64,000 bases of DNA from Chaetoderma sp. LZ-2023a (lineage: Eukaryota > Mollusca > Caudofoveata > Chaetodermatida > Chaetodermatidae): assembly GCA_034401795.1 (NCBI GenBank), contig CM067369.1, forward strand, positions 94,556,536-94,620,535, in the 5' to 3' direction. The notes beneath the pieces were generated by a model, which searched no databases, had not been told where the DNA came from, and saw only the letters and a program-made list of their open reading frames with translations. Positions 32,811 to 63,847 of this stretch are shown piece by piece. Position numbers and translations under genes: made by a program. The stretch's first letter is position 1, and each line of letters starts with the position of its first letter.

Positions 32811-32871
32811 ATGCTACGAATACTCTGCTTGTGCATGCTGGTTGCTGGGCTCAGTAGAGGGGAGGAGACTG
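32811..32871 (+). CDS. GH1 exon 1: signal peptide
   Basis: Encodes [20 protein letters not shown]; donor GTAAGT at 32872, phase 1. Chosen because the ATG follows a TATA box, the peptide is a good secretion signal, and the phase fits exon 2. It is 8.4 kb from exon 2, so it is the least certain exon. Confidence 0.7.

Positions 32872-63847: not shown

Follow-up and report, generated by a model that had tools for sequence, protein, structure and literature searches.

An intact GH1 gene with a dismantled sugar site in a caudofoveate mollusc: a putative tailed pseudoenzyme

The window analysed here, a 64,000-base stretch of Chaetoderma DNA (C11:94556536-94620535, from an animal assembly of 2.44 Gb in 2753 contigs), carries a GH1 gene whose frame is intact and whose sugar-binding site has been largely replaced. 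What does such a gene encode? A preliminary description, made from the letters of the window, offered two answers, a pseudoenzyme or a new catalyst. Here, we compare the gene with the other GH1 loci of the same genome, with bacterial GH1 enzymes and with published animal relatives, and find the first answer the better supported of the two.

Gene structure and the GH1 loci of the genome

Splicing of the window DNA rebuilt a gene of nine exons on the forward strand (Table 1), encoding 534 residues with no internal stop and one terminal stop. All introns have GT-AG borders, with AG before exons 2-9, GT after exons 2-8 and GTAAGT directly after exon 1. The intact frame and matching phases of the preliminary description were reproduced to the base. 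Because exons 2, 3, 4, 5, 6, 8 and 9, taken singly, all score above the family cut-off of Pfam Glyco_hydro_1 (4.7e-7 to 1.5e-35), chance can be excluded as an explanation of the gene. Exon 7 by itself gave no Pfam GH1 match and is supported by tblastn matches to the paralogous loci described below (C8a 1.9e-8, C1 2.3e-5, C8b 0.002 and C2 0.079), while the whole protein matches 8in1 with an E-value of 3.9e-220. Exon 1 was the sole candidate signal exon in bases 20001-41230 under the criteria set; when these were relaxed slightly and the entire window scanned, two candidates appeared on the forward strand and one on the reverse. An exon homologous to exon 1 (MLRMALLLGVFVFILGLVRGED against a 19-letter peptide) lies upstream of C8b, and the signal-exon scan upstream of C2 found no homologue.

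Table 1. Exons, site codons and hydrophobic tail of the GH1 gene, in window positions.
Feature	Position	Strand	Support
Exon 1: start codon and putative signal peptide (20 letters)	32811-32871	+	rebuilt gene; homologous exon at C8b
Exon 2: start of GH1 barrel	41254-41331	+	Pfam PF00232, 2.1e-8
L38 codon (exon 2), replaces glycone Gln	41304-41306	+	alignment
Exon 3	44001-44131	+	PF00232, 1.2e-8
Exon 4	51880-52140	+	PF00232, 1.5e-35
Y140 codon (exon 4), replaces glycone His	52027-52029	+	alignment
Exon 5	53111-53291	+	PF00232, 3.9e-11
D186 codon (exon 5), replaces acid/base Glu; followed by G187 for Pro	53135-53137	+	alignment
Exon 6	54537-54779	+	PF00232, 1.1e-12
Exon 7	58118-58259	+	tblastn matches in paralogues C8a, C1, C8b and C2; same phase in C8b and C2
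I327 codon (exon 7), replaces glycone Asn	58141-58143	+	alignment
Exon 8	61758-61945	+	PF00232, 4.7e-7
Nucleophile E400 codon (exon 8), kept; followed by H401 for Asn	61858-61860	+	alignment
Exon 9 and stop	63528-63847	+	PF00232, 1.7e-15
F443 codon (exon 9), for Trp	63569-63571	+	alignment
P450 codon (exon 9), for Glu	63590-63592	+	alignment
Hydrophobic C-terminal 19-mer	63761-63817	+	mean Kyte-Doolittle 1.95

Two alternative gene models were rejected. Neither further exons supplying the NEP or FEW motifs nor a fusion to a second GH1 domain could be found: the profile search gave no other GH1 match on C11, a lower bound given that it missed exons 1, 7 and 8 itself, and tblastn in C11:94620001-94640000 returned exon 9 itself only. 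A scan of the forward-strand frames for NEP showed it twice between exons 4 and 5, each time as a chance-like tripeptide (in frames 52172-52270 and 52494-52631), and neither frame has a GH1 match in Pfam.

The whole-genome profile search gave at least 28 GH1 matches in six places and found six of the nine exons of the window gene; the five other places, together with the stretch downstream of the window, were fetched for comparison. Besides the window gene they hold one canonical gene (C2), one complete dismantled gene (C8b), two dismantled pseudogenes (C8a and C1) and a dismantled fragment (C8c). C2 (exons 2-9 at C2:81861346-81872323) is canonical at the site positions compared, has the exon order and phases of the window gene in exons 2-9 and shares 49.4% identity with the window protein across 464 codons. 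C8b (C8:16.07 Mb) has the phases of the window gene and the homologous signal exon; the two are about 62% identical and both complete over nine exons. C8a (C8:12.5 Mb) has lost the donor of exon 5 and has a stop in exon 7; exon 6 was not detected at this locus, and a 5,000-base gap may contain exon 3. C1 (11.76 Mb, minus strand) likewise carries a stop in exon 7; its exons 1-4 were not found in the stretch examined, which includes a gap. C8c (C8:5.57 Mb) consists of exon 6 and a frameshifted exon 7, its exon 6 being 58.8% identical to the window gene and 37.5% to C2 over 80 codons.

The window holds other features as well. An uninterrupted 290-residue frame of a Tc1/mariner-type transposase (HTH_Tnp_Tc3_2, DDE_3) lies in intron 3 (49657-50529, forward strand), and a 503-residue hAT-type transposase frame (DUF659, Dimer_Tnp_hAT) lies at 27962-29473 on the same strand. 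Long frames resembling non-LTR retrotransposons stand on the reverse strand at 23209-26391, 19330-20835 and 47151-48344, encoding a reverse transcriptase with zf-RVT, an endonuclease and, in intron 3, a second reverse transcriptase. Intron 3 also holds a TA repeat of 188.5 copies with 98% matches (45424-45800), and several long tri- and tetranucleotide arrays occur elsewhere in the window. In the assembly as a whole, molluscan haemocyanin (PF14830), a family not known outside molluscs, gave 44 matches, which points to a molluscan host. Its domains stand in similar blocks at C8:80.8-80.9 and 96.4-97.0 Mb, C17:62.6 Mb and C1610, some of which score equally on the two contigs C8 and C17; this reads as recent duplication or uncollapsed haplotypes. 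A COX1 search returned two matches, both on C18, at about 4.65 Mb and 3.29 Mb. At 4.65 Mb compact bacterial-type oxidase genes of 303, 689, 202 and 110 residues, which we take to be cyoABCD, follow one another on one strand, and on account of this run C18 probably represents the chromosome, 4.65 Mb or longer, of a bacterium, either a symbiont or a contaminant.

The active site and its known relatives

The window protein was aligned with C2, the akuBGL domains, klotho and 80 bacterial GH1s, the latter being the best 80 of 596 sequences fetched with two peptide patterns (one spanning column 140, with H or Y allowed) and hence no unbiased sample. All six substitutions listed in the preliminary description are present: L38, Y140, D186, I327 and F443 stand against Q, H, E, N and W, respectively, in 80/80 bacterial sequences, and P450 against E in 77/80. 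Two changes absent from that description follow the catalytic positions, G187 against P (70/80) and H401 against N (77/80). The nucleophile E400 is kept as stated, as are N185, Y329, W141, W451 and R95 (each 80/80), and the seven exon matches to Pfam bear out the barrel framework. Of the two catalytic glutamates of a retaining β-glucosidase the protein thus has E400, with D186 in place of the other, and of the glycone contacts it keeps N185 and W451, with Q38, H140, N327, W443 and E450 changed. Against the NCBIfam GH1 β-glucosidase equivalog (cut-off 478.5 bits) it scores 332.7, although C2, a canonical gene, likewise misses this mark with 435.5.

The losses concentrate in the site. Among 78 near-invariant columns (at least 76/80 bacteria and the same in C2, so that losses in C2 are impossible by construction), the window protein has lost 7/12 in the site and 13/66 elsewhere (Fisher p = 0.0095). 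Corresponding losses are 9/12 against 13/66 for C8b (p = 0.00034), 7/12 against 7/57 for C8a (p = 0.0015), 6/9 against 6/25 for C1 (p = 0.04) and 7/12 against 11/66 for akuBGL GH1D1 (p = 0.0045), with no site excess in akuBGL GH1D2 (1/12 against 7/66) or klotho KL1 (3/11 against 9/65). Part of the site is common to the window gene, C8b, C8a and C1: Y140 is found in the three copies with that column, and D186, G187, E400 and H401 in all four. These five fixed columns do not by themselves exceed the average of the clade, since 93/256 columns with four copies are invariant (190/375 with three). Columns 38, 185, 327, 443, 450 and 451 differ among the copies, with L, T and A at 38 (absent in C1), I, G, V and V at 327, F, F, W and W at 443 and P, P, Q and P at 450 in the window gene, C8b, C8a and C1, respectively, and I at 185 and M at 451 in C8b. 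Glycone contacts varying from copy to copy are what a released site would be expected to show. The telling point is that sugar contacts nearly invariant in the bacteria drift within this clade.

As precedents for an altered GH1 site the preliminary description had named klothos and plant myrosinases; the closest published mollusc case, akuBGL GH1D1, had been missed. In plant myrosinases, which act on thioglucosides, the acid/base Glu is replaced by Gln and the rest of the glycone site is kept, a pattern from which the window protein departs with Asp at 186 and a lost glycone site. The residue pattern it does share is that of akuBGL GH1D1: acid/base Asp, nucleophile Glu kept, glycone site lost. 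Passages of the report on this Aplysia kurodai protein (PDB 8in1; eLife 2023, PMC10619976) describe D192 in place of Glu with E404 kept, carboxylate oxygens 8.4 Å apart compared with 5.1 Å in GH1D2, and neither the glycone-binding site nor catalysis-related residues conserved. The same passages report no activity of recombinant GH1D1 on one named substrate, with an effect of missing N-glycosylation possible, and propose a chaperone role. Both proteins are mollusc GH1 barrels with His changed to Tyr and the glycone Gln and Asn lost; GH1D1 differs in being the first half of a two-domain secreted enzyme and in having Trp at 443, Pro at 187 and Asp at 185 and 450.

A new catalyst, the second answer offered at the outset, is unlikely given the drifting contacts and the inactive GH1D1. 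In a myrosinase-like version of it, Glu400, Tyr329, Asn185 and Arg95 would act with Asp186 on a non-glucoside or acid-supplying ligand, and indeed the four clade copies with those exons all retain E400 and D186, and the window gene also retains R95, Y329 and N185. We nevertheless regard this as very improbable: the complete paralogue C8b has replacements at 185 and 451, the sugar contacts of subsite -1 are mostly gone and drifting, and the same Asp/Glu pair in akuBGL GH1D1, with its oxygens 8.4 Å apart, was inactive on the substrate tested (PMC10619976).

Other animal GH1 domains resemble the window protein in part. Domains 1 and 3 of the shipworm LpMDGH1 are described as without required catalytic residues (PMC5840672), and domain 1 of the Corbicula CjCEL1A as without needed ones (PMC10619976, PMC5840672); compared by description only, they are parts of multi-domain digestive enzymes, unlike the window gene. 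The KL1 and KL2 domains of α-klotho, presented in abstracts as an FGF co-receptor, have the GH1 fold with the acid/base or nucleophile changed (N at 186 in KL1, S at 400 in KL2); unlike the window protein α-klotho has two domains, and KL1 keeps Gln38, His140, Trp443 and Glu450. The vertebrate γ-klotho (LCTL, KLPH), again compared by description only, is a membrane-anchored GH1 relative, as proposed for the window protein: excerpts give it as a 567-residue single-pass membrane protein of the GH1 family (PMC5929405, which cites a 2002 γ-klotho paper with ‘atypical active site structure’ in its title) and as a type I membrane glycoprotein that mice need for normal lens sutures (PMC13168428). Its length suggests a single GH1 domain. 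Insect GH1s with lost functional sites have been noted as likely pseudogenes, in the passage available of PMC9500737. Among the matches listed in the open-licence literature, no titles or abstract openings describe a stand-alone dismantled GH1 from a mollusc.

Descent and selection

A phylogeny with the GH1 genes of the same genome, proposed as a check on the preliminary description, was built by maximum likelihood from 18 sequences, with ten of the 80 bacteria as the outgroup (C8c, α-klotho KL2, β-klotho, γ-klotho, lactase, CjCEL1A and LpMDGH1 lie outside this sample). Among the sampled sequences the window gene, C1, C8a and C8b form one clade (100/100), sister to C2 (98.6/100) and then to akuBGL domain 2 (84.6/72). 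Klotho KL1, the sole klotho in the tree, lies outside the dismantled clade and pairs weakly with akuBGL domain 1 (73.2/72). A grouping of C8b with C2 was rejected by both AU and SH tests. Forcing akuBGL domain 1 together with the dismantled clade costs 26.8 log units, so that shared descent with GH1D1 is ruled out by AU (p = 0.0098) and not by SH (p = 0.119). Because AU rejects this union, although SH does not, the Glu to Asp and His to Tyr changes common to the window gene and GH1D1 look convergent, as read from few animal sequences on long branches.

The relation to GH1D1 also bears on the idea that the window protein is a chaperone or partner in trans, aiding the folding, secretion or localisation of the C2 enzyme as a separate protein. 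Such a role has been put forward for the first domains, themselves non-catalytic, of akuBGL, CjCEL1A and lactase-phlorizin hydrolase (in passages of PMC10619976 and PMC5840672, the shipworm authors recalling the idea for the latter two), and a canonical GH1 gene is still present in the genome. We consider it improbable here, as no fusion to a catalytic domain was seen on C11 (a lower bound) or in its downstream stretch, AU, unlike SH, rejects common descent with GH1D1, and a membrane tail would be unexpected in a lumenal chaperone.

Selection was followed among the same-genome copies, as had also been proposed, with a codon model of branch-wise omega covering 470 codons. On the four topologies that ranked best among 15, omega for the window branch was 0.181, 0.206, 0.203 and 0.168, and omega = 1 was rejected on each (p = 2.8e-7, 1.2e-5, 6e-6 and 4.8e-11). 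The protein tree and the codon model disagree on the branching within the clade, the latter favouring other topologies; the C2 branch ran to its length bound (saturation), and in one run the shared omega of near-zero internal branches reached its upper bound. C1 has a fairly low omega (0.32-0.34). Because the broken C8a is as low as the window gene (0.16-0.24, and compatible with omega = 1, p = 0.19, on one of the three topologies tried for it), a low omega would also fit a window gene lost very recently, and what the values show is long constraint after duplication, not constraint today. The preliminary claim of coding constraint, present or recent, is upheld in that form by the window branch (about 0.17-0.21) and by the second complete altered gene, C8b.

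It might then be supposed that the dismantled clade is dying and that the window copy is merely still unbroken, as the three broken loci (C8a, C1 and C8c) and the low omega of C8a would allow. The window gene and C8b are, however, both complete over nine exons at about 62% identity, and the window branch rejects omega = 1; decay is in our judgement an unlikely account of the gene.

The hydrophobic tail and a putative role at the cell surface

The protein ends in a hydrophobic segment. The best C-terminal 19-mer means are 1.95 for the window protein, 1.86 for C8a, 1.68 for C1 and, more weakly, 1.39 for C8b, against 0.45 for C2. Directly before it the window protein has a six-residue insertion (residues 493-498, 63719-63736) absent from the three other clade copies. 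From hydropathy alone, the tail of the clade can be read as a membrane anchor or a GPI signal.

The shared site changes with drifting sugar contacts, the purifying selection and the hydrophobic tail together make a long-constrained pseudoenzyme a well-supported reading of the window gene, and of the two answers first offered this is the one that omega and C8b favour. We infer secretion, anchoring, a lack of catalysis and a binding role from sequence features, and on balance think it probable that the window gene specifies a GH1 pseudoenzyme which is secreted, probably anchored in the membrane, and whose most likely role at the cell surface is binding. Its origin would lie in the duplication of a canonical GH1 gene such as the present C2, after which one copy would have lost the acid/base Glu (to Asp) and its sugar contacts and gained the hydrophobic C-terminal tail. 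Re-duplication of this altered copy would then have produced the four loci of one clade and the similar fragment, with the window gene and C8b as the complete ones. The most likely mode of action is binding without glycoside hydrolysis: as in klothos, a ligand or partner would meet, at the cell surface, either the outside of the retained barrel or a pocket that has been remodelled and become less polar; against this, the conserved Asp/Glu pair could still be doing some chemistry.

A broader proposal may be put forward tentatively: that in molluscs a digestive β-glucosidase gave rise to a family of receptors or co-receptors at the cell surface, independently of the vertebrate klothos and of Aplysia GH1D1, by dismantling the sugar site, fixing Y140, DG and EHG and adding a membrane tail. 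GH1 pseudoenzymes are known in animals; what is new is a stand-alone, tailed and apparently convergent clade. Two mollusc lineages have come to an identical Asp and Tyr, which suggests that animals have made GH1 barrels into non-enzymes more than once. A single genome in which a canonical gene stands beside two complete but dismantled copies and several that are broken offers a natural series for studying the role of the barrel after catalysis is lost.
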